This document shows positions 2,593-63,882 of a stretch of DNA of 64,000 nucleotides, in pieces. Position numbers and translations under genes: made by a program. Position 1 is the first letter of the stretch; each line of letters begins with the position of its first letter. Source of the stretch: Anaeropeptidivorans aminofermentans (GTDB lineage: Bacteria; Bacillota; Clostridia; Lachnospirales; UBA5962); contig NZ_OW711693.1 in NCBI RefSeq assembly GCF_940670685.1, positions 3,472,001-3,536,000 on the forward strand, given 5' to 3'. The notes below the pieces were generated by a model, which searched no databases, was not told the DNA's origin, and worked only from the letters and a program-made list of their open reading frames with translations.

Positions 2593-2850
2593 AGTAAATT
2601 TCTTATAAAGAAGGAGCAAAACCTATTCACTAGGGCTTCATCGTTACCAAACACAAAATAAGTTTGATAACCATAAGACAATTTCATTATAAAACGCATA
2701 TCCTCGTATAGTCCATTCGCTTTTATACCTTTATAAGCATTTGGCTTTAGGGGACATAAAATAAGAGAAAAGCAAATGGACAATGCTGCTATTTCATATG
2801 AATTCAAACGATATACGGCTTTGCTCCTGTTTACCTTTAAATTTACTATA
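2593..2850. repeat. Composite palindromic repeat: truncated long form with a C-type unit inside
   Basis: The outer arms are AGTAAATTTCTTATAAAG with GGAGCAAAACCTATTCAC on the left and ATACGGCTTTGCTCC with TTTAAATTTACTATA on the right. Their ends and the GGAGCAAAA/TTTTGCTCC core pair with each other. Inside the left part is the segment GTTACCAAACAC...GATAACCATAAG, shared with the long-form repeats at 10.2, 17.9 and 42.8 kb. A second unit (TAGTCCATTCGCTTTTAT ... AAGAGAAAAGCAAATGGACA) is nested inside and forms its own hairpin. The frame that looks open here on the minus strand is repeat DNA and is not annotated as a gene. Confidence 0.8.
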
Positions 2851-3064: not shown

Positions 3065-3165
3065 ATATAGTAAATTTGCTTTTCTTCCGCAGTCAGTAAT
3101 GGGCTCCAAGAAGGCATAAAATCAAGGAAAAGCAAATTTACAACGCTGCTATTTTACTTTAATTC
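3065..3165 (+). repeat. D-type palindromic repeat
   Basis: This copy reads TATAGTAAATTTGCTTTTC, TTCCGCAGT, AAGAAGGCATAAAATC, AAGGAAAAGCAAATTTAC. The outer segments are complementary and form the stem. Two further copies lie in the opposite orientation at 7.4 kb and 61.3 kb and are nearly identical over about 70 bp. It sits just downstream of the perR stop codon, so it is probably transcribed as part of that mRNA's 3' region. Confidence 0.8.
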
Positions 3166-3205
3166 AAGTATGACTTATGAAAATACCTGACTAAATTTGA
3201 GTTCC

Positions 3206-6769: not shown

Positions 6770-7305
6770 TATAGTAAACTTAAAATGGAAAGAAATAAAC
6801 CCGTATACACATAGGCTCAAAAACGCAGCGTTTCCTGTGAAAATCCATATTTTTAAATCGTATAAAAAGGCACAAACCAAGAGAACAGGGTCGCTGTGTC
6901 TTGAATATGCCCTGTGAGCTTAGAGGATACCTGCCAAAATTTATACAGATAAATCCATATTTATAAACAAATCTCTATTTTATCCTTTCGTATCGTCAAG
7001 TTGCTTTTATTCCGAAGTAAATATCTGGATTAAGACGGGTATCTAAAATGACTTTTTGATTTTTAATTTTAATAAGTATTTATTCCTATAGCAGATAAGC
7101 TTGATTTTTTAAATTTATTTACTATAGCTAAGAGAAAAGCAAAAAAATTTACTTTGTAAAAATCGCACTTTATGCGTTCGGATGTCTTTTTAGATTCTAT
7201 CTTCGAGCCGCAGGATTTTTCCTGTTTTAATTGACAAGGATATTATTTCATATTAAATTAACTATAAATCAGTTATTCCTCCTTCCTTATAAGAAATTCA
7301 CTATA
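6770..7305. repeat. Nested composite palindrome (about 535 bp)
   Basis: The outer arms TATAGTAAACTTAAAATGG...AATAAACCCGTATACAC and AGTTATTCCTCCTTCC...TAAGAAATTCACTATA are the two ends of a standard repeat. Between them lie other units, including a C-type unit (TTGCTTTTATTCCGAAGTAA ... AAGAGAAAAGC) at about 7015-7150. The size is best explained by repeated insertion into one parent copy. No gene is visible in the region 6700-7570 apart from this. Confidence 0.7.
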
Positions 7306-7419
7306 AGCCTATGATTTTTTGTTTTCAGGATATGTCAAAAGAATAATAGAATGAGGCAAGAACTTTTGTTTAGAGAGTAAAATTTAGATTACTTTTAATC
7401 CAAGCCGGTTTATACTTAA

Positions 7420-7518
7420 ATAAATATAAAACAGCAGTGCTGCAAATTTGCTTTTCCTTGATTTTATGCCTTCTTCCAGCCCGTTACTTACTGCGGAAGA
7501 AAAGTAAATTTGCTATAC
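7420..7518 (-). repeat. D-type palindromic repeat, inverted copy
   Basis: This is the reverse complement of the copy at 3.1 kb and is almost base-for-base identical to the copy at 61.3 kb, from TTTGCTTTTCCTTGATTT through to GAAGAAAAGTAAATTT. The high identity between distant copies suggests recent spread. Confidence 0.8.
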
Positions 7519-17484: not shown

Positions 17485-17534
17485 TAATTAACAAAGATAC
17501 AAACTTATTTATTAACTATTATAAATTTAAAACT

Positions 17535-17672
17535 AAAGTAAATTTTATATAAAGAAATAGCAAAAGCCTATTCCCACCAGGCTCAAAAACACGGATTTCC
17601 TTCGGAAACAGTACATTTTTGAACCTGTGGGAATATACGGTTTTGCTATTGTTGAACTTTAAATTTACTATA
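17535..17672. repeat. A-type palindromic repeat
   Basis: AGTAAATTTTATATAAAG, AGCAAAAGCCTATTCCCAC and ATACGGTTTTGCTATTG, AACTTTAAATTTACTATA are the paired ends. The interior carries CTCAAAAACACGGATTTCC and GGAAACAGTACATTTTTGA, a second inner stem. It is directly followed by a long-form copy, making a tandem. Confidence 0.85.
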
Positions 17673-22507: not shown

Positions 22508-25500
22508 TTATTTTGCTTCAGCTGCATTGTAAGTAGCTGTTGATGTAGCTGCATCCCAACCAACTGTTACGTTGAAAGCTTCGCCTAATGCACGGAAAGG
22601 TATGAAAGCTCTTTCGCTTGTGATTTCAGCTGCTACTGGTAATCCATCTGGGCTTACCATAGGAACGCTTACACCGTTTACAAGGTAGTTAGTGTTTCCA
22701 ATCTGGAACTGAACGATACGAGTACCAGCGTCTACAGTAACTGTCTTGTTAGCATCATCCCATTTAACTGTTTCATCTGCAAGGCCGAGAGCGTTAGCTA
22801 CGAATCTTACAGGAACCATAGTTGAGTTGCTTGCTGTTGAAACATAAGCTGCAACAGGCATTGTGAAATCTTGATCGTTGATCTTGATTACAGGGTTGCC
22901 GATTGTAACTTTAACAGTGTTCTTGAATTCAGAACTTGCATCGTTAGCTACAGTTACAACGTTGATGTACTTAGCGGAAACGCCAGGTACTGTAAATAAG
23001 TCGTTCTGGTTTACAAACTTAGTTTCGTCATTTTCAGCAAGCTGATAGTAGTTCTGAGCGATTGCATTGCCCCATACTACTAAATCAATACCTCTGTCCT
23101 CAGAAGCGGAAAGGTTGGAGTAAGGAACGTTTCTGCTTACCTTAACCTGAACGTTTGAGAAGGAAATTGTTGAAGCTTCGTCAGATTCTCTGTCGATTTC
23201 AAATGTAATCTGGCCTTCTGTCTTAGTGTTAGCGTTAGGTCTTGTAGAAAGAACGCTTGATGTTGTAACGTTAGAAATCTTAAGATCTCCTTCAGTTACT
23301 TTAGCTGTGAAGCCTTTAGCGATTTCCATATCGATAGAGATACCGTCTGTGATAGATACTCTAACTTCTTTGCCTTTAAGAAGGTTGCCAGCTGCTGTCT
23401 CAGTGATGGAGAAGTCGCTAACTGTAAAGTACTGATAGCCTACCTGAACTTCAGATACTTTATCAACTTTAACTTCAACAGGCTTAATAGCCTTAGCTAT
23501 TGTTACTTTTGGATAATCTTCATTTGTTGATTTTTCTACTGCAGAACCGCTAAGTGTAAGGTCGATGTCGCCTTCAAAATTAACAGCCATACCTAACCAT
23601 AAGTCTAACTCAAAGCTAGCCTTTTTATCTTTTTCAATCTTAAGGTTTGTGATGATAAGTTCGTTATCGTCTACAGTTACTCTGTTTACTTTCTTCTGAG
23701 TGTTGTAGTAGATAGCGTCTTTGTCTCCAGTTGTACCTTCCTGAAGTGCTGTTTTGGAATCATCAATAAGGTTTGTAATCTTATCGAATTTAGCCTTAAG
23801 GATTGTTACGTCCTCTGGAAGAGTTAATTTAGTAGTTCTTTCTGCCCACCAAGCAGCAGGTATTTTTTCAGAAACTTTTACTCTTGCAGCTTTGTGGTAT
23901 TCATCGTCAAGATTGTCGTCCATACCGGCAAAAGCTTTCTTATTATCAGCATATTTTACATTGCCTTCTAAACGGCCGGAAACTAAAGTAGGGATAGCAT
24001 CTTTAGTTCTCTTAAGCTCGATTGTGTAATCAGAAGCTGTAGCTACCTTGAAGGATTCTTCTGTGTAGATTGTTGAAGAACCATAGTTGTCGATCGTTAA
24101 GTTCACATCGCCTGTTTTGATGGTTTCTTCATCTTCAGCTACTAATACAACACCTTCTATATAAAGAGCACCTTTTACGTCTGTAGATTGATTGATACCC
24201 TTAATATTGAATAATAATGTAGAGTGGTCTATTTTATCTCTTCTATCGTCATAATCTACGGTAGAGGCACTTATGTTTCCTGAAAGACCAGGCTCAATAC
24301 CAATCTTAATCTTGCTTACGCTTGTGAATTCATAGCCCTTAGGAGCTTTTAAGTAGAAAGAGCCATCTTTGATAGAAGCAAGCTTCTTCTCTTCGATGAT
24401 GATTCTCTTAAGCTCGAACTGGCTTCTTGCTGTTACAGTATCTTTAACATAAGCTTTTGTTTTTCCGTCTGCTTTTGAAGCAAATACATGTGATGTTTCG
24501 GAAATTGTAGTGTTACCTGCATCAGATACACGGATTCTGTACTCATCTTTGTCGCCAACTAATTCAACAACGATAGGAATATAGATTGAAGCACCTGCGC
24601 CAGCATTTGCAGATATTCTTACAGTAGCTGTTGTAAGTCCGCTGCCGATTGATAAAGTATAAGGAACTTCTCCTGCAGCAGTTCTTGTATAAACTTTACT
24701 GTTTTCGTCATAGCTACCAACAGTTGGATCGTATGCCTTTATCTCATCTTTTGTGCTGTCTGTTGTGCTAACTACTACTTCTATAAGAGAGTCAACGCTA
24801 TCAACTGCAACAGAGTCATCTGAAAAGTCACTTTTTCCACTATTGTAAGTAACAACAACATCGCTAACTTTGCTGTCAAGAGCCCTAAGTTCTCTAAGTA
24901 AAGATGCTTTCCATGCTTTAAGGTCCGCTACTGTACTTCCTGATGCAGAAGGCACTGTCTCCTGAACTACATAACGGAACTCATTCTCTATTGCACTTAC
25001 AGTAGCTTCTCTAGTAGGAAGAGCTTTATACTCTACTTCTACTGTAACATCAGCAGGATCAACAGATGCGCCACTGGTTGTTATTGTAGTTACATCATCA
25101 TCATTCCAGAAAACTTTAACAACTACATTTGTTCCTTTAGAACCAACTGCAGTATTTATAGCAGTAGTTACAGAAGTTAAATAACCTGCAAGATCAGTGT
25201 CTACAGTACCCGCAAACGCTGCAACAGTTGAAGAATGTGCAGTATTAAATGACGCAAGGCTATCATAAGTCTTTACATCACTAACAACTACCATTACTGA
25301 GTCAATAGATTTAAAAGAAGCAGTACCACTACCTGGAGTAGCAGCATTTATAGTTACTTTAGTATCATCAGTAAGAGTATACTTAATAACTACATCCTCA
25401 ACTTCAACAGGATAATTATCATCAGCTGTTTGAAGTTCAGTCAGTAAATTGGTTCTGTAAGTTCTAATATTGGATTCGTCAACACTTACTGAAGGAACGA

Positions 25501-25882
25501 CTGCAAACGGAACAACTGTATCAAGGTCACCTACTGCCATACCTTTGTCCGCTAAAAAATTATTAAGCCTAGATCTTGTTGTTTCGGTGTTTGTTCCATC
25601 AAGTGTAAGCTTTCCACCGAAATTAAATTCAGCATTTTCAAGAGATAATTTAAATGTATCTCCCGCCTTAACGCTTTCTTTAAGATAGATTTTGAAATGA
25701 CCGATTCTGCTCCAGTCAGTTCCAGATGCTGGAAGTCCAGAACGCTCTTCAATAAGAAGAACTTCATCTCCCGCTTTAACTGCCTGTCTGGTAACACTGT
25801 TCTCAGAAGCAGCCATGGCGGTCATTGGGAATGCTGTTACGGCCATAACAGCAGCCAATAAAAGAGCTAATTTTCTCTTCAT
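22508..25882 (-). CDS. Large secreted S-layer-like protein with C-terminal stalk domain
   Basis: 1124 residues. A signal peptide (MKRKLALLLAAVMAVTAFPM, cleaved after AMA) shows export. The last 130 residues are a copper-amine-oxidase-N (stalk, PF07833) domain, with MVPVRFVANALGLADETVKW and FIPFRALGEAFNVTVGWD. The body is beta-rich and matches the paralogue at 26.7 kb over most of its length. An extra block near residues 130-370 is built from related units: TNLLTELQTADDNYPVEVEDV versus ASLLRELRALDSKVSDVVV, each ending in an 'IDSVMVVVSD'-like strand. Codon use is strongly biased (few synonymous codons, many GCT/ACT/GTT), as in very highly expressed genes. I infer a major cell-surface layer or cell-wall protein. 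Promoter and structured leader are clear. Confidence 0.8.
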   Translation of the reverse strand: MKRKLALLLAAVMAVTAFPMTAMAASENSVTRQAVKAGDEVLLIEERSGLPASGTDWSRIGHFKIYLKESVKAGDTFKLSLENAEFNFGGKLTLDGTNTETTRSRLNNFLADKGMAVGDLDTVVPFAVVPSVSVDESNIRTYRTNLLTELQTADDNYPVEVEDVVIKYTLTDDTKVTINAATPGSGTASFKSIDSVMVVVSDVKTYDSLASFNTAHSSTVAAFAGTVDTDLAGYLTSVTTAINTAVGSKGTNVVVKVFWNDDDVTTITTSGASVDPADVTVEVEYKALPTREATVSAIENEFRYVVQETVPSASGSTVADLKAWKASLLRELRALDSKVSDVVVTYNSGKSDFSDDSVAVDSVDSLIEVVVSTTDSTKDEIKAYDPTVGSYDENSKVYTRTAAGEVPYTLSIGSGLTTATVRISANAGAGASIYIPIVVELVGDKDEYRIRVSDAGNTTISETSHVFASKADGKTKAYVKDTVTARSQFELKRIIIEEKKLASIKDGSFYLKAPKGYEFTSVSKIKIGIEPGLSGNISASTVDYDDRRDKIDHSTLLFNIKGINQSTDVKGALYIEGVVLVAEDEETIKTGDVNLTIDNYGSSTIYTEESFKVATASDYTIELKRTKDAIPTLVSGRLEGNVKYADNKKAFAGMDDNLDDEYHKAARVKVSEKIPAAWWAERTTKLTLPEDVTILKAKFDKITNLIDDSKTALQEGTTGDKDAIYYNTQKKVNRVTVDDNELIITNLKIEKDKKASFELDLWLGMAVNFEGDIDLTLSGSAVEKSTNEDYPKVTIAKAIKPVEVKVDKVSEVQVGYQYFTVSDFSITETAAGNLLKGKEVRVSITDGISIDMEIAKGFTAKVTEGDLKISNVTTSSVLSTRPNANTKTEGQITFEIDRESDEASTISFSNVQVKVSRNVPYSNLSASEDRGIDLVVWGNAIAQNYYQLAENDETKFVNQNDLFTVPGVSAKYINVVTVANDASSEFKNTVKVTIGNPVIKINDQDFTMPVAAYVSTASNSTMVPVRFVANALGLADETVKWDDANKTVTVDAGTRIVQFQIGNTNYLVNGVSVPMVSPDGLPVAAEITSERAFIPFRALGEAFNVTVGWDAATSTATYNAAEAK

Positions 25883-26730: not shown

Positions 26731-29517
26731 TTACTGAGGAATCGGTGCGTTATAGGTTGCTGTGCTTGTTGCAGCGTCCCATGCTACCGTTATATTAAAG
26801 GCGTCTCCAAGAGCTCTGAAAGGAACAAAGGAACGCTCGTTGGTTATTTCAGCAGCTACCGGCAAGCCGTCAGGGCTTGTCATCGGAATGCTTACGCCGT
26901 TAGCAAGATAATTTGTATTGCCTATCTGGAACTGTACGATACGTGTACCTGCGTCTACGGTTACTGTCTTAGACGCGTCGTCCCATTTAACCTTTTCATC
27001 TGCAAGACCTAAAGCGTTAGAGATAAATCTTACAGGTACCATAGTTGAGTTGCTTCTTGTTGAAACGTATGCGGATACAGGCATCGTGTACTGATCCTGG
27101 CCGATAAGGATAACCGGATTACCGATCGTTACCTTAACTACATTTGAGAACTGGTTATTTTCACCTGTTGCAGCTGTAGTTACGTTAATATATTTTTCTC
27201 TGATGCCAGGTACTGTAAAGAAGTCTCTGGTATTGATGCTTGTGTCTGCCGGAAGACCCTTCTTAATATCTCCTATGAGGCCTTCATAGTTTCCGGCTAT
27301 AGCAGGTCCCCAAACTACAAGATTGATACCTCTGTCATTTTCATTGGAAAGGTTTGAATAAGGAACACTTCTGTCTACCTTAACCTGAACGTTTGAGAAT
27401 CTGATTGTAGAGGCTTGAGTAGAGGCTCTGTCTATATCGAATTTAACCTGTCCTTCGATAGTTTCTCCTGTATAGCCAAGGGCTGATTGTGTTAAGATAT
27501 TTGAAATCCTAAGGTTTCCTTCAACTACCTGAGCGGTGAAGCCCTTAGCAATACTCATATCAAACGATATTTCATCAGTTACTGAAATATATACTGCTTT
27601 GCCTTGCTCAAGATTTCCTGCCTTGGTTTCTGTAATATCAAAATCACCTACGGAAAGATACTGATAACCTACTTTAACATCAGATACCTTAGTGGTTACG
27701 GTTACTGGCTTGATAGCCCTTGCGATAGTTACGGAGCTTCCGCCTTCAGCGCCTGTTACTGCAGAGCCTGTAAGGGTAAGGTCGATATCGCCTTCAAAGT
27801 CTACTCTGATATTGAGCCATAATGTTAAGTCGAATCTTGCTCTCTTAGAAGCGTCTTTTACGCTAAGTCTCGAAATTGTAAGCCTGTTGTCTTTTAATGT
27901 TACAACACTGTTCTGTCTTGAACCTGTGTTGTAGAAGTCATTATCATTGCTTGTGCCTACTGTTGTAAGGGATGTTCTTGATGCATCGGAAAGGTTTTCT
28001 ACGTTTGTAAACCTAGCCTTAAGGATTTTAACACCTTCAGGAAGAGTAAACTCTGTAGTTCTTTCAGACCACCATGCATTCGGAATTCTTTCTTCTACCC
28101 TAACGGTTGCTGCTCTATGGTCATCATCGGATACAGTTCCGTCGGAAGAATATACGCCATTTTGAATTAAGGTGTATCTTTCAAGACGGCCTGATATAAG
28201 CTCAGGAATCGTATCTCTTACTCTTGTCAAGGATACGGTATAATCCGCAACCCTGCCTACTAAAAAGCTTTCATCAGTGATACTATCGTTTCCTGTATCT
28301 CTGATAGCAATATAAAGTTCTTGATCGCTTATTACGTCGTCAACTTCTTCAGATACCAGCATAAGGCCTTTTATATATAAGGCACCTCTGATATTTGTCG
28401 AAGGTCTTACGCCTGGAAGGGTAACTTCCACTATATTTCTATCCTGTCTTGTGTTTCTGTTTCTGTAGTTAATGGTATAATCAGGAGTATCTCCCGTGCT
28501 TGTACCAAGTCCACTTTGTCCGCTTGCCCATCTAAGGCCGGATTCTGTGAAAACCTGTGCATTATTGATATTATCAAAATAATATCCCGAAGGTGCTACA
28601 AGTTCAAAAGATGCACCTTGCTTAATAGAACCGATTCTAAGTTCGTTTATTACAATCTCTTTCAAGTCGAAATCTGTTCTTGCGGTTACTGTACCTGTTG
28701 CAGTTGTTCTGGTACGTCCTTCGCTGCCTTGAGCAAGAAGGAATCTGTTGGTTGATATAGAAGTTGCAGAGTCTGTTATGGATACTGTTACCTCTGTATC
28801 GTCTCCGCCTGTTCTAACTACAAGAGGAATAACGAGTCTCTTTTTTGCGCCGTCTGTTGCGCTGGCTCCTGTATTACCGAGAATGCTTACTGTAGCCACT
28901 GAGGAATCAATAGGGCTTACGCGAAGCATATACTGAACCTGATTCGGCGCAAGTCTTAAATAGTTGTTATTGAAGTAAACACCATCACTGGGGTTAAAAG
29001 TGGTTTTAAGCTTCGCTCCAGTTGAATCTGTAGGATAACCTGTTCCCGTATAGTCTGTTGTAACTACTTCTGATTTCGCAGTGTATGCGCCGCCTGATTC
29101 TGTTATATAATCAGGGTAGCTGGTTTTAAGGCTTTCCGCTATGGTTGACGTTATACCTGCTGTTTCACTGGCCTGTATGGGAAGACTCACGGAGTTTGAC
29201 TCCTCTGCCCTAAAGAACCAGCTTGCATTTTCAAGTTGTACTTTAAATATTCCGGTACCGGTTATACCGTTTTCTAACGTATTGTTAAGCTCAATCACAA
29301 GGTTTGAACCATCTATCCAATATTCTACCTTGTCGTCGTTTCCTGTTACAGATCCTCCCGATACACCCGGCCATCCCTGCTCATAAAAGAGCGTATAATT
29401 GGGAACATTTAAGCCGGATTTGGAAAGGTAATTGTCGGAAATCGCCGCGAAGGCTGCCTGGGGCAATGCCGCGATGGACATAACAGCCGCCAGGAAAAGA
29501 GCAAACTTTCTTTTCAT
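26731..29517 (-). CDS. Secreted S-layer-like protein with stalk domain, paralogue
   Basis: 928 residues. The signal peptide is MKRKFALFLAAVMSIAALPQ with cleavage after AFAA. The C-terminal stalk domain (MVPVRFISNALGLADEKVKW ... SFVPFRALGDAFNITVAWD) is nearly identical to that of the larger neighbour. The middle shares blocks such as IPNAWWSERTTEFTLPEGV and FSNVQVKVDRSVPYSNLS. It lacks the extra repeated block found near residues 130-370 of the neighbour. I chose the second of two adjacent ATGs (29517) by analogy with the paralogue, since AAGGAGG is nine bases away; 29520 is also possible. Its codon bias is weaker than the paralogue's, suggesting lower expression or a conditional role. The two genes arose by duplication and carry the toxin-antitoxin module between them. 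Confidence 0.8.
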   Translation of the reverse strand: MKRKFALFLAAVMSIAALPQAAFAAISDNYLSKSGLNVPNYTLFYEQGWPGVSGGSVTGNDDKVEYWIDGSNLVIELNNTLENGITGTGIFKVQLENASWFFRAEESNSVSLPIQASETAGITSTIAESLKTSYPDYITESGGAYTAKSEVVTTDYTGTGYPTDSTGAKLKTTFNPSDGVYFNNNYLRLAPNQVQYMLRVSPIDSSVATVSILGNTGASATDGAKKRLVIPLVVRTGGDDTEVTVSITDSATSISTNRFLLAQGSEGRTRTTATGTVTARTDFDLKEIVINELRIGSIKQGASFELVAPSGYYFDNINNAQVFTESGLRWASGQSGLGTSTGDTPDYTINYRNRNTRQDRNIVEVTLPGVRPSTNIRGALYIKGLMLVSEEVDDVISDQELYIAIRDTGNDSITDESFLVGRVADYTVSLTRVRDTIPELISGRLERYTLIQNGVYSSDGTVSDDDHRAATVRVEERIPNAWWSERTTEFTLPEGVKILKARFTNVENLSDASRTSLTTVGTSNDNDFYNTGSRQNSVVTLKDNRLTISRLSVKDASKRARFDLTLWLNIRVDFEGDIDLTLTGSAVTGAEGGSSVTIARAIKPVTVTTKVSDVKVGYQYLSVGDFDITETKAGNLEQGKAVYISVTDEISFDMSIAKGFTAQVVEGNLRISNILTQSALGYTGETIEGQVKFDIDRASTQASTIRFSNVQVKVDRSVPYSNLSNENDRGINLVVWGPAIAGNYEGLIGDIKKGLPADTSINTRDFFTVPGIREKYINVTTAATGENNQFSNVVKVTIGNPVILIGQDQYTMPVSAYVSTRSNSTMVPVRFISNALGLADEKVKWDDASKTVTVDAGTRIVQFQIGNTNYLANGVSIPMTSPDGLPVAAEITNERSFVPFRALGDAFNITVAWDAATSTATYNAPIPQ

Positions 29518-30339
29518 CATGTCTTTCCTCCTTAATGTTTTACGGGCATTTAAAAAATAAAAACTATCTATGCCCTTCTTGTGCCGACACAATTCCTATT
29601 ATTTAATTAATTTTTAGACATGCGGTACTTGATTTTATCTTTTTTCCGGCAAAATAAAAATTTATATGCCTAAACTAATTCACTTTTCAGTTTCTGAAAT
29701 TTCCGGCTAGCCGTAAACTTCCAGCTTTCTTCTGGCTAATTTAGCATAAGATAAAATAAGCACAAGAGATTATGATGATAGCTTTACATGATTTGGATTA
29801 TTCATTATGGCTTTAAAGCTCATATTTTTTCCAATACTTACTGAAAAAGCCATGACTTATTAAGCGGCAGGAGCTTATAAAAAGTCAAACAAATAATCAA
29901 AATCAAGGTTAGCTGTCGATTATTATTATCCGCCGACTTCACTTTTTTATACCAAATTAGAAGTTGAGAAATATATACAGGGCTGGCATTTTTTTCATGA
30001 AAATAAAAACACTAGGAAATAAACCTAAAATCAGGTTTCTATGAGATGAATATAAAAAACTTATTTTAAACAAAGCCTTGTTATATAGATTTGAAATTTT
30101 ATAGAAGGAAAGATTAAAATAAAAGCAAAAATAAAAAGTGTTCCTTTAAATAATCTAAATAAGACGTTTTTATTAATTATGTTTTGTTTTATATAAAAAA
30201 TCAAACAACGTAGAAAAGCGCACTGCTCTGTGCTATGCTTAATATGGAAATAAGTTCTTATAATTTCATAAATAGTCTTTTGTTATTTCTTTATAAAAAT
30301 ATACCGTAACTAAAATTTATATAATTAGGAAGTTATATT
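29518..30339. other. Long AT-rich gap upstream of the second S-layer-like gene
   Basis: No gene or full repeat is visible. Near the S-layer-like start the mRNA leader can form GGGCAT/ATGCCC (29543-29572) and TTGTG/CACAA (29579-29592) hairpins. A CCGG-rich dyad (CCGGCTAGCCG) is at about 29703. I could not pick a confident promoter. Confidence 0.5.
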
Positions 30340-32921: not shown

Positions 32922-33923
32922 ATGAAAAGGTTTATGGCTTTAGTTACAGCTGCCGCTCTTATGGCAGGTTCTACAGCTATGGTTTTCGCTGATGAAACTG
33001 TTACAGCACCGGCAGAAACTACTGCTACTGAGGAAGTTGCCGCACCTACAGAAGAGGCTGCTGCAGAAGAAGTTAAAGAAGAAGTTGTTAAGGTAGAGCT
33101 TAAGCTCACAGAAAAATCCTTTACAAACTCAGATGGAGTTGTTTTAGGTAAAGTTCCTGTATTCACAGGAAATGACGATTTATCAAAGAAAGTAGCTCTT
33201 AAGGCTTCCGACGTATATGCTCAGGATATCGCTGATAACGTAATTCAGGCTGCTACAAAAGATATCGCTATTTTCGGCTATCAGGTAACTGAGCTTGACA
33301 CAGTTGCTAAAGTTGAATTAACAAAGAATATCACAACTACTTTAAAGGGTAGCGATAACCTTACAGTATATGCTACATACTATATTGACAAGGCTACTAA
33401 CAAAGAAATCACAGAAGCTGAATATACTGCACTTGTTCCTGCTGTAGAAGAAGTTCCTGCTGAGACAGAGACTCCTGCTGAAACAGAAACTCCTGCTGAA
33501 ACTCCTGAGACTCCTGCTGTTGAGCTTCCTGCTACTCTTGCTTTAAGAGCAAACGCTGAAGCTTTAGGCTATGTAGTAGACTGGAATGAAGGAGTAGTAA
33601 CAATCACTAAAGGTGAAAACGTTGCTATTCTTACACAGGGCGTTAACGAGTATACAAACTTCGCAGGCGAAGTTGTTGTATTAGCATCTGCTCCTGAAAA
33701 CGTAGAAGGTACTTTAATGGTTCCTACTGCTTTCTTTACAGAAATCTTAGGCGCTACAGTAACAGTTGACGCTGAAGGTGTTGTAGCTGTTGCTGCTGCT
33801 ACTGAAGAAGCTCCTGCAGAAGAAGAAGCTGCTGCAGAGGCTACTACTGAAGAAGCTGCTCCTGTTGAAGAAGCTGCTGATGAAGCTCCAGTAGAAGAAA
33901 CAGCTGAAACTCCTGCTGCTTAA
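32922..33923 (+). CDS. Acidic Ala/Glu/Thr-rich secreted protein with stalk-like domain
   Basis: 333 residues. The signal peptide is MKRFMALVTAAALMAGSTAM with cleavage after VFA. Low-complexity acidic stretches rich in Ala, Glu, Thr and Pro lie at residues 25-50, 170-200 and 290-333, including repeats of AETETPAETETPAETP. Between them are two compact parts: one around residues 50-165, and a stalk-like (copper-amine-oxidase-N-type) unit at about 205-285 with WNEGVVTITKG and GTLMVPTAFFTEILG. The codon use is as biased as in the larger S-layer-like gene, so it is probably abundant at the cell surface. No anchoring motif (LPXTG, SLH) is visible. Confidence 0.7.
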   Translation: MKRFMALVTAAALMAGSTAMVFADETVTAPAETTATEEVAAPTEEAAAEEVKEEVVKVELKLTEKSFTNSDGVVLGKVPVFTGNDDLSKKVALKASDVYAQDIADNVIQAATKDIAIFGYQVTELDTVAKVELTKNITTTLKGSDNLTVYATYYIDKATNKEITEAEYTALVPAVEEVPAETETPAETETPAETPETPAVELPATLALRANAEALGYVVDWNEGVVTITKGENVAILTQGVNEYTNFAGEVVVLASAPENVEGTLMVPTAFFTEILGATVTVDAEGVVAVAAATEEAPAEEEAAAEATTEEAAPVEEAADEAPVEETAETPAA

Positions 33924-33997: not shown

Positions 33998-34134
33998 TTA
34001 AACAAAAGCAAAGCGGCCGCAACATCTTATCCCCATAGCTTAAAAAACACGGATTTCCACAGGAAACAGTATATTTTTGAACTATTTCGAATATAAGTCT
34101 TTTGCGGCTGCTTTGCTTGTTTTACCATGATGGT
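33998..34134. repeat. Divergent palindromic repeat (GCAAAGCGGCCGCAA arms)
   Basis: Arms AACAAAAGCAAAGCGGCCGC and TTTTGCGGCTGCTTTGCTTG, with the usual inner GATTTCCACAGGAAACAG stem. It has the A-type plan but different arm sequence, and the arms still pair. Confidence 0.75.
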
Positions 34135-34310
34135 AAATTTGCTTTTTTCCAAAGTGAATATTGGGATTAAGGCGGTTATTTAAAATTGATTTTTATTCTT
34201 TAATCTTAATCAGTTTCCTTCAGTTTATAAGCAAAGAAACTTAATTTTTTAAGTTTCTTTACTATATTAAAAATAAGGAAAAAGTAAATTCACAGCACTG
34301 CTGTTTCATA
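34131..34310. repeat. C-type palindromic repeat
   Basis: TGGTAAATTTGCTTTTTTCC, AAAGTGAATATTGGGATTAA, then AATAAGGAAAAAGTAAATTC as the complementary arm. An inner hairpin AAGAAACTTAA/TTAAGTTTCTT lies between. The same blocks occur at 7.0, 43.9, 51.8 and (inverted) 62.1 kb. Confidence 0.75.
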
Positions 34311-34320
34311 TTTATTGGGG

Positions 34321-34402
34321 TATAGTAAATTTAAAGTTAAACAGCAGCAAAGCCATATATTCACACAGGCTTTTGCTGCTTCTTTATATGAAATTTACTT
34401 TA
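34321..34402. repeat. Short-form palindromic repeat (about 82 bp)
   Basis: TATAGTAAATTTAAAGTTAA, GCAGCAAAGCCATATATTC joined directly to GGCTTTTGCTGCTTC, TGAAATTTACTTTA. The central part of the standard form is absent. It is equivalent to the copy at 36.1 kb. Confidence 0.8.
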
Positions 34403-41387: not shown

Positions 41388-42386
41388 ATGAAAAAAACAA
41401 GCTTTATTATTACCTTAATTTTTCTGTTGATATTGAATTCCATCACCATCTGGGGAAGCCCTGCCTCAAACAGCGGCGTAGCCCCTTTATCAAGAAGCGC
41501 TTCTGCTCTTACAAAAACCGCCGTGAAGGTAAGCGGAACTTACCCTTATTTTGAAGGCAATTCTTTTAATGTCAATCAGAAGATACAGGCCATAATAACG
41601 GCAAATATAAAAGAAGAAGGAAAAAGCAGCACCCTTAATCCAAATTTAAGCGTAAGCTACCGTATAGAAGAAAGCGGAAATATTGTATCCGTTATTCTCA
41701 CAAGCACTTCATCCTCCGGTTCATCAATGGAAAAAATCGACACCGTGGTTTTCGATAATTCCAAAGGCTCTAAGGAAATTATACGCATCACAGACGATGC
41801 TGCCTTAGGAAAAAACGGAATAAAAATAGCAAATAAAAAAATAAGCACAACCATCTCCAAAAACCCGGGCAAATACAATGTGGATTTTTCAGGCATCGGT
41901 GTAAACGCGGACTTTTATATAAAAGATAATTCCGTATATCTGGTATTTGACAAATATGAAATTTCCCCGGGGGTTTACGGCACTCAGGAAATAGCCGTAG
42001 ACAAAAGCAAAATAAAGAATTTTAAAATTTTATCCTCAGAATACGTTTACGGCTCAAGCTATAATATACGAATGATACCCCTGCGTAAAATCTGCAAAGA
42101 AGGCTTTGATTACGACGTAAGATGGCATAACGCTACCCCTACCATGAAAAACCCAAAAATTCTTATTTTAAAGGATAATTTCATAGCTTCCTTAAGTATC
42201 GGTATCAATGAATACAGCAAAAACAACTTTACCCCTCAAATTCTTGAGGCCCCGCCGGAAATAAGAGCAGATGCCAATAATAACGGCATCACTTATGTGC
42301 CTATTTCCTTTGCAGAAACCATATTAGACCTTTTCTATTATGTAGACAGCGCAGGAAATCTTGTTTTTTCATCTTATGAAGAGTAG
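41388..42386 (+). CDS. Secreted protein with copper-amine-oxidase-N-like C-terminus
   Basis: 332 residues. The signal peptide is MKKTSFIITLIFLLILNSIT. The middle (about 45-215) is a beta-rich domain resembling DUF3298/RsiV-like modules (TYPYFEGNSFNVNQKIQAII ... PGKYNVDFSGIGVNADFYI). The C-terminal part (about 220-330) looks like a stalk-type domain with NIRMIPLRKICKEGFDYDV and ITYVPISFAETILDLF. It is divergent from the SLH operon. AAAAGGAGG precedes the start. A role in the cell surface or in sensing wall stress is inference from domain type. Confidence 0.68.
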   Translation: MKKTSFIITLIFLLILNSITIWGSPASNSGVAPLSRSASALTKTAVKVSGTYPYFEGNSFNVNQKIQAIITANIKEEGKSSTLNPNLSVSYRIEESGNIVSVILTSTSSSGSSMEKIDTVVFDNSKGSKEIIRITDDAALGKNGIKIANKKISTTISKNPGKYNVDFSGIGVNADFYIKDNSVYLVFDKYEISPGVYGTQEIAVDKSKIKNFKILSSEYVYGSSYNIRMIPLRKICKEGFDYDVRWHNATPTMKNPKILILKDNFIASLSIGINEYSKNNFTPQILEAPPEIRADANNNGITYVPISFAETILDLFYYVDSAGNLVFSSYEE

Positions 42387-43913: not shown

Positions 43914-44125
43914 TAGTCAATTTGCTTTTATACCGAAATGAATATTGGGATTAAGAGGAATATACTTATTAAAAGTTAAAATTGCTTTTTAATTTTTATT
44001 TTAATAAGCTTTTCTTAAATCTATAGTAAATAAATAAGAGAAAAGCAAATTGACAATGCCGCTATTTTATATGCATTTAAGCGATATACAGCTTTGCTAT
44101 CGGTTATCTTTAAATTTACGATATT
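43914..44125. repeat. C-type repeat followed by half an A-type arm
   Basis: TAGTCAATTTGCTTTTATAC, ATGAATATTGGGATTAAGAG and AAGAGAAAAGCAAATTGACA are the C-type blocks. They are followed by GATATACAGCTTTGCTATCG and CTTTAAATTTACGATAT, a single A-type right arm. Confidence 0.7.
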
Positions 44126-49252: not shown

Positions 49253-49381
49253 TATAGTAAAATAGTTTAATTACAGTAACAAAAATCGTATATTTTGAAT
49301 GGCTTAATATAAGCATTTCCACTATATTAGGCCGTTTACGAAAAATAGTTTTTGTTACTGCCTTAAGGCTGTTTTACCATA
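49253..49381. repeat. B-type palindromic repeat
   Basis: Ends TATAGTAAAATAGTTTAATT and AAGGCTGTTTTACCATA; interior AAAATCGTATATTTTGAATG and ACGAAAAATAGTTTTTGTTA. Both ends carry the TTTAC/GTAAA variant. Confidence 0.8.
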
Positions 49382-51613: not shown

Positions 51614-51731
51614 ATGATTTCCTTCCCTTTACGATAAAATAGGCAAATCCCTCCGTCAATTATTTCATTCTTTCAATCGGTTCCTTTAAACAATATTAAC
51701 AGGTTCGCTTATGAAAGATAAATCAAATTTA

Positions 51732-52150
51732 TTAGGCAGTGCCTGAAAACAGTCAGACTGATAAGAATATTAAATAAACTTTAGTTTATTTAATATTTTA
51801 CATCAGAAATATAGTCAATTTGCTTTTATTCCGAAGTGAATATTTGGGTTAAGAGGACATAAATAAGAGAAAAGCAGATTGACAATGGTACTGTTTCATA
51901 TTTAATCAAGTATACATTTTTTAGCTTTAAAGCTTACAAAACATTATTTACAAGAAAACGTGAATTCGGGTGGAATCAGAAAGAAGTCCGAACAGGCGAA
52001 GGCTGGATTTTGCAAAGCAAAGTTTCTGAATAGAATGGTCGGCAAGTCCGGCTGTAAGGCATTATGCTCAGGTTTTTACACAGCAAAAATTCTTTTTTCG
52101 ATAATAAAATCCGCTTTTATGGGAAAAAGCCTAAGCTTTTGACCTTTCGG
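51732..52150 (+). mobile_element. F-type repeat carrying a C-type insertion
   Basis: The blocks match those at 63.35-63.6 kb: AGGCAGTGCCTGAAAACAGT, the hairpin ATATTAAATAAACT/AGTTTATTTAATAT, CATTTTTTAGCTTTAAAGC, TTTACAAGAAAACGTGAATT, AAGAAGTCCG. At 51812-51912 a C-type unit (TAGTCAATTTGCTTTTATTC ... TTAATCAAGTA) interrupts the otherwise matching sequence, flanked by TA on both sides. A small frame beginning MNSGGIRKKSEQAKAGFCK resembles one in the 63.5 kb copy, but it has no ribosome-binding site. The rest of 51614-52411 shows no gene. Confidence 0.75.
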
Positions 52151-52411
52151 ATACGCCTTAAAGGTTCATTCTGACTAGAGTATCCCTGCCTGTTTTCTAA
52201 AGGTTTCCATTCCTGCTTATTATTTCTCTTTTTATAAATCAAAATTTATCAAACACCGATTATGCTCATAATCTGACTGGGTGCCAATTTTAATTATATT
52301 TATATTCTTATCAATATAACAAGAAATCCTTGAATAATTTTTTAGTATCAAAAAACCAAGCAGATACCTCTATCAATAACCCAAATCAATCTAGCCTGCT
52401 TCTTAAAAACC

Positions 52412-61219: not shown

Positions 61220-61396
61220 TATAGTGAAACAAGTTAATTACAGTAACAAAACCCTATATTTTATGCTTAGTAAACCCAAAACACCTATATTCAAATAAAT
61301 GTAAAATCGTAGTGTTGTAAATTTGCTTTTCCTTGATTTTATGCCTTCTTCCAGCCCGTTACTTACTGCGGAAGAAAAGTAAATTTACTATACAGC
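61220..61396. repeat. Half B-type arm with D-type copy
   Basis: TATAGTGAAACAAGTTAATT, CAGTAACAAAACCCTATATT and TGCTTAGTAAACC are the reverse complement of the right end of the 63.7 kb element. At about 61300-61396 there follows a D-type copy virtually identical to 7420-7518. Confidence 0.75.
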
Positions 61397-62034: not shown

Positions 62035-62099
62035 ATTTTTACCTCCCTGTGATTTTTCTTTTGTCTTAAAAAGAAAATATTATAGCTGAATTTAAATAA

Positions 62100-62240
62100 A
62101 TAATAGCATTGTCAATTTACTTTTCCCTAATTTGATAAGGAAAACTTATTAAAATTAAAAATCAAAGGCAATTTTAAATTTTAATATGTATACCCGTCTC
62201 AATCCAAATGTTCCTTCGGCATAAAAGCAAATTGGCTATA
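62100..62240 (-). repeat. C-type palindromic repeat, inverted
   Basis: Read on the minus strand: AGCCAATTTGCTTTTATGCC, GAAGGAACATTTGGATTGAG and GGGAAAAGTAAATTGACAAT. No gene lies in 62035-62626. Confidence 0.7.
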
Positions 62241-63289: not shown

Positions 63290-63735
63290 ATAGTCTTAAG
63301 GAGGTAACAAAAACCTGTTTTTCATAAATGTCTTAAATATAAAAGAACGTTCACCTAGGCAGTGCCTGAAAATAGTCGAACCGCTGTAGAATAATAAATA
63401 AACTAAAGTTTATTTATTATTCTACAGCAGAAATACATTTTTCAGCTTTAAAGCTGAAAAAGTATTGTTTACAAGAAAATGTGAATTCGAATGGAACGGT
63501 CAAGAAGTCCGGTCACGCGCAGCGTGATTTTTGCGAAGCAAAAATTTTGAGAAGAGAGAAACGCAGAAATAGCAAGGCTGTTTCGAGTATTTTCGATGAT
63601 GAAGTCACGCTTTTATGGCAAAATAGACTTTTGTTTGGACTTTTCAGACACGCCCTAGCTTTACTGTAAGGGTTTTAGGTTTACTAAGTATAAAATATAC
63701 GGTTTTTGTTGCTGTAATTAAATTATTTTACTATA
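63290..63735. mobile_element. B-type repeat interrupted by an F-type unit (empty site for C)
   Basis: The outer ends are CTATGGTGAAATAGTCTTAA and GTAATTAAATTATTTTACTATA. Inside, from about 63347, is an F unit with a perfect 46-bp palindrome (63383-63428, arms GCTGTAGAATAATAAATAAA plus CT) and a 24-bp palindrome (63438-63461, TTTTTCAGCTTTAAAGCTGA plus AAAA). CAGAAATACATTTTTC is continuous here, whereas at 51.8 kb a 101-bp unit lies between its two halves. A small frame beginning MNSNGTVKKSGHAQRDFCEA mirrors that of the other F copy. Confidence 0.8.
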
Positions 63736-63882
63736 AGCAGCGTCTGAAAATCTAAAAACCCACGGGAAGTTAAATTTCCAGGTTGTTTTTAGATTTTCGG
63801 CCCCTGCCATGAAACTTGAAATAACTTTTCTTAATTCTTTTCTTATGCAAAGGATTTATACACTTTTGAAAGGAGCATTGCC

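Follow-up and report, generated by a model that had tools for sequence, protein, structure and literature searches.

A 101-bp unit inserted at duplicated TA targets very probably represents a new IS630-type MITE family in a genome that lacks IS630 genes

We have found that a 101-bp unit is inserted at a TA within another small repeat, with the target left intact, that it shares its end structure with IS630 elements, and that IS630 genes are absent from the genome that carries it. Judged from these features, the unit very probably belongs to a new family of IS630/Tc1-mariner-type MITEs, a known kind of element that would have been moved by an IS630-clade enzyme. The window analyzed is a stretch of 64,000 nucleotides (G000:C1:3472001-3536000) from a 3.757-Mb genome in a single contig.

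The initial annotation had proposed, from two F-type repeats, a 101-bp insertion with TA duplication. The alignment of the two repeats that it had suggested, run over a wider range (51730-52290 against 63350-63740), bore this out and confirmed insertion at TA: the unit at 51812-51912 splits the F-type repeat at this dinucleotide, and the sole junction gap between the 51.8-kb and 63.4-kb copies corresponded to the unit plus one additional TA. Identity in this alignment was 84% for the left flank (51733-51811) and 78% for the right flank (51912-52029). The filled sequence reads CAGAAA-TA-[TAGTC...CAAGTA]-TA-CATTTTT and the empty one CAGAAA-TA-CATTTTT. The two loci comprise the following features, each given with its basis:

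51735-52157, plus strand: F element into which the unit is inserted, with TTA on either side (51732-51734 and 52158-52160; alignment, flank inspection)
51810-51811, unstranded: left-hand copy of the duplicated target TA (the empty copies have just one)
51812-51912, plus strand: C-type unit of 101 bp, putative IS630-type MITE inside the F element (alignment, family search)
51913-51914, unstranded: right-hand copy of the duplicated target TA (alignment with the empty copy)
63358-63654, plus strand: uninterrupted F element with CTA on either side (63355-63357 and 63655-63657; alignment, flank inspection)
63434-63435, unstranded: empty target TA within the uninterrupted F element (alignment with the filled copy)

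In a single pair of copies, exact loss of the MITE and of one TA would give the same appearance, and the 63.4-kb copy could then be a deletion derivative rather than an empty site, the objection that the initial annotation had itself raised. However, a second, independent uninterrupted F copy (L118:1986-2143, at ~492.7 kb of the genome) aligned without gaps at 84% over 158 bp, with TA at the joint. Both this and the 63.4-kb copy were continuous with one TA, in agreement with the claim that the host sequence was left intact. The F-type repeats (51735-52157, 63358-63654, and L118:1988-2298) are small elements with inverted ends of ~15 bp (GGCAGTGYCTGAAAA; GGCAGTGCCTGAAAA and GGCGTGTCTGAAAA at the two ends) and YTA target duplications, namely TTA for the 51.8-kb copy and CTA for both the 63.4-kb and the L118 copies. 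Since the 3-bp duplications at 51.8 and 63.4 kb differ, each F copy goes back to an insertion of its own by the same small element, and hence the 63.4-kb site is no scar left by a deletion. The unit also occurs in many unrelated contexts, and we give the deletion reading next to no credence.

Every empty site found was a paralogous repeat and not the orthologous locus of a sister strain. The closest relative of the 51.8-kb locus, at 99% identity, was a 6.4-kb contig (L045, or G057:C126 of MAG UBA11329), in which the site is also filled. Elsewhere in the 20-kb test region, G057 matched the window at 65-97% only, mostly in repeats; the contig is probably a stray one in the MAG of a related species in which these repeats also occur.

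To find further filled/empty pairs, the two flanks of every copy were fused at a single TA and used as a query against the examined sequence; spanning partners turned up for 36 copies. The TA was clean at the joint for 51810, L125, L010, L138, and L022. L125 and window positions 49253-49377 formed such a pair (89%, TA at the joint), as probably did window_61286 and L101; for L021 and L094/L096, TA was at the joint and a gap lay about eight bases away. Some composites have a joint that was altered after insertion. TA insertion with TA duplication, as in IS630-type MITEs, was thus seen in several pairs.

The units are numerous. BLAST against the whole genome gave at least 42 copies (40 of 248 candidates were scored), and a covariance model trained on 30 copies gave at least 150 matches genome-wide; the 127 copies considered below are the covariance-model copies in 305 kb of examined sequence. 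C and A are the largest subfamilies (59 and 39 copies, respectively), and a single stem pair splits them. The median nearest-neighbor identity between copies was 88%, and the tightest pairs (96-98%) were composites with a C unit within a B-type repeat. One such site has been multiplied as a composite (L025, L027, L029, L035, L036, L038-L041, L094, and window 2709). Elsewhere, two units abut with a common TA (L012:599-807 and L034:599-809), as expected when an insertion hits an existing flanking TA. The C/A family was absent from all 56 further genomes examined at family and order level, and MAG G057 carries 13 copies. Within the window, the following members and host repeat were located:

2709-2810, plus strand: C-type copy within a B-type repeat, a composite (family search)
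3068-3170, plus strand: A-type copy, from the sister subfamily (family search)
6993-7264, plus strand: long-loop form broken by a further insert (loop inspection)
7413-7515, minus strand: A-type copy (family search)
17532-17672, plus strand: B-type repeat with ends TATAGTAAATTT and a AAACAGTAAC box at its right end, a frequent host of C units (sequence comparison)
34131-34324, plus strand: long-loop form (loop inspection)
43914-44083, plus strand: long-loop form (loop inspection)
61288-61390, minus strand: A-type copy, with L101:1883-1989 as probable empty partner (filled/empty comparison)
62081-62240, minus strand: long-loop form of ~160 bp (family search, loop inspection)

The four long-loop copies contain a related insert in the loop. 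The units are without coding content, and those of the window sit between ORFs; being short (~101 bp), non-coding, and present in at least 150 copies, they have the general properties of IS630-type MITEs. Among the coding regions of the window, four encode proteins with copper amine oxidase N-terminal-like domains (22508-25882, 26731-29592, 32922-33923, and 41388-42386), two of which are paralogues at the DNA level.

Two statements on the termini had to be revised. TA-TA had been assigned to both ends of all copies; TA was found at the start in 112/127 copies and at the end in 86/127 (flank background frequency 0.11), and the description holds for the 80/127 copies with TA at both ends. ACTATA is the terminus of the B/G/H repeats, the 3' end of C-type units being AAGTATA. 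The internal features of the 51.8-kb copy are:

51814-51827, plus strand: left arm of an internal inverted repeat, GTCAATTTGCTTTT (pairing analysis)
51870-51883, plus strand: right arm of the same repeat, AAAAGCAGATTGAC (pairing analysis)
51889-51896, minus strand: intact subterminal box AAACAGTA of the 3' end, at the TA distance seen in IS630 ends (sequence)

The 3' ends matched those of IS630 elements of the same order in both sequence and spacing. The box AAACAGTA (at least 6 of 8 positions) was at a fixed offset of 18 in 92/127 copies, and a score of at least 6/8 was reached in 105/127 copies vs 22 in shuffles. The same box, with the same TA spacing, was present in two IS630 elements with DDE_3 matches (L190 and L193), and it took the form AAAACAGTCC in five others (L180, L182, L183, L184, and L186). 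The A-type consensus was identical to the right end of L190 at 21/28 positions, a match never equalled in 100,000 shuffles (bases beyond TATA). L190 reads TA-TACTCAAACAACCCCAAAACAGTAACAC, spans 882 bp with TA on either side, and has a broken transposase reading frame; IS630 genes were found in 53/290 genomes of the order. An IS630-like end is therefore present at the 3' side of the units. The B, G, and H families of this genome have in common the ends TATAGTAAA... plus CAGTAAC or CAGTAAT. The B/G end pattern gave 474 matches in the own genome (reversed control, 0) and occurred also in G005, G018, G041, and G088, in the first two of which it marks MITEs of 160-220 bp. An IS630 adjoining a matching MITE in G005 (L158) was set aside, being a separate, truncated element with a left end beginning TATAGTGAAAT.

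The terminal TA-TA[G/C]T is common to both ends, and the subterminal box is missing at the 5' end (at least 6/8 in 12/127 copies vs 5 in shuffles), so that the units appear to fall short of a canonical inverted terminal repeat pair. The 5' end pairs with an internal arm, more than in shuffles: 95.4% of cells in the 12-bp stem were paired vs 88.8%, with double changes in 83 cells vs 26, and the plus strand of the 51812 copy folded at a z of -2.76. These values would also suit an RNA or regulatory element whose stem is kept by compensatory changes as a transcript hairpin. We consider such selection improbable, because most double changes fall at one subfamily-defining pair, the tree of copies is too weakly supported for counting independent compensatory events, hairpins are usual among MITEs as well, and an RNA role leaves the TA duplication unexplained. 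Moreover, Rfam at gathering scores returned tRNA only and no match to the units. Alternatively, the units might be asymmetric MITEs, with a transposase box at one end only and the other end recognized through pairing with the internal arm (hairpin or cruciform). This is a speculative proposal to which we attach a low probability; if true, it would make the covarying stem a working part of transposition.

The initial annotation had attributed the movement of the units to an IS630-type transposase acting in trans and had called for a search for such an enzyme. IS630 genes were absent from the own genome and from MAG G057: DDE_3 (PF13358) had no match in either, and NF033545 gave only sub-threshold matches in the own genome. 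The best of the latter (1305-1307 kb) were rejected as IS630, being IS3-like by inspection (HTH and integrase reading frames); the region G000:C1:1305497-1307455 contains tandem broken IS3-like transposase genes. No autonomous IS630 partner was thus found in the own genome. A MITE partner in the same genome is usual but not required, and partners can be lost. The attribution is favored by the TA duplication, the 3' ends, and the lack of coding capacity; the failure to find the enzyme here, the nearly box-free 5' end, the broken reading frame of L190, and the paralogous nature of all empty sites weigh against it. Units without coding capacity in a genome with no IS630 or DDE_3 match fit movement in trans, and since the transposase is missing from both this genome and the family-sharing MAG, we infer the mobilizing enzyme. 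The absence of IS630 genes could also point to another TA-duplicating enzyme outside IS630, such as one of the IS5 group. We judge this very unlikely, since a profile search of the own genome likewise gave no PF01609 transposase and the end box with its spacing matches IS630 elements specifically.

With IS630-type mobilization as the preferred reading, an IS630-clade transposase would bind the terminal TA-TA[G/C]T of the unit and the 3' box AAACAGTA 16 bases in, and presumably also recognized the divergent 5' end. It would excise the unit and paste it into a TA, which is duplicated. In this way the units may have come to occupy at least 150 sites, often within other small repeats, and the enzyme would since have been lost, or was never fixed in this genome.

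The units would then constitute a new high-copy IS630-type MITE family in an uncultured clostridial lineage, a family for which the literature searched yielded no description. TA-flanked repeat families of one genome appear tied to the IS630 end signature TA-TA[G/C]T-N11-AAAACAGTAAC, which should make the lost partner identifiable. They also suggest how far passenger units can spread in a genome that has lost the gene for the enzyme.

By description, the family is close in type to the RUP and Correia elements. Like the IS630 elements of the same order (L190, L193, L180, L182, L183, L184, and L186), the units have TA-TA[G/C][T/C] ends and a AAAACAGT box at the same distance, but they have no gene, whereas those elements carry a DDE_3 transposase and, in the cases with both ends identified, have a full length of ~0.9 kb. 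RUP of pneumococcus (107 bp, 108 copies) targets TA, often lies in other mobile elements, and has been linked to IS630-Spn1 by end similarity (PMC2229807, PMC3049150). The units resemble RUP, by description, in size, copy number, TA target, and IS630 link; RUP, however, coexists with its IS630 partner, whereas this genome has no IS630. The Correia/NEMIS elements of Neisseria have TA termini, filled and empty sites, and forms of ~107 and 155 bp that differ by an internal segment (PMC2229807), and short and long-loop forms are found here too, again a resemblance by description. Unlike the Correia elements, with their 24-bp inverted ends (PMC2229807), the units described here have a 5' end that differs from the 3' end.
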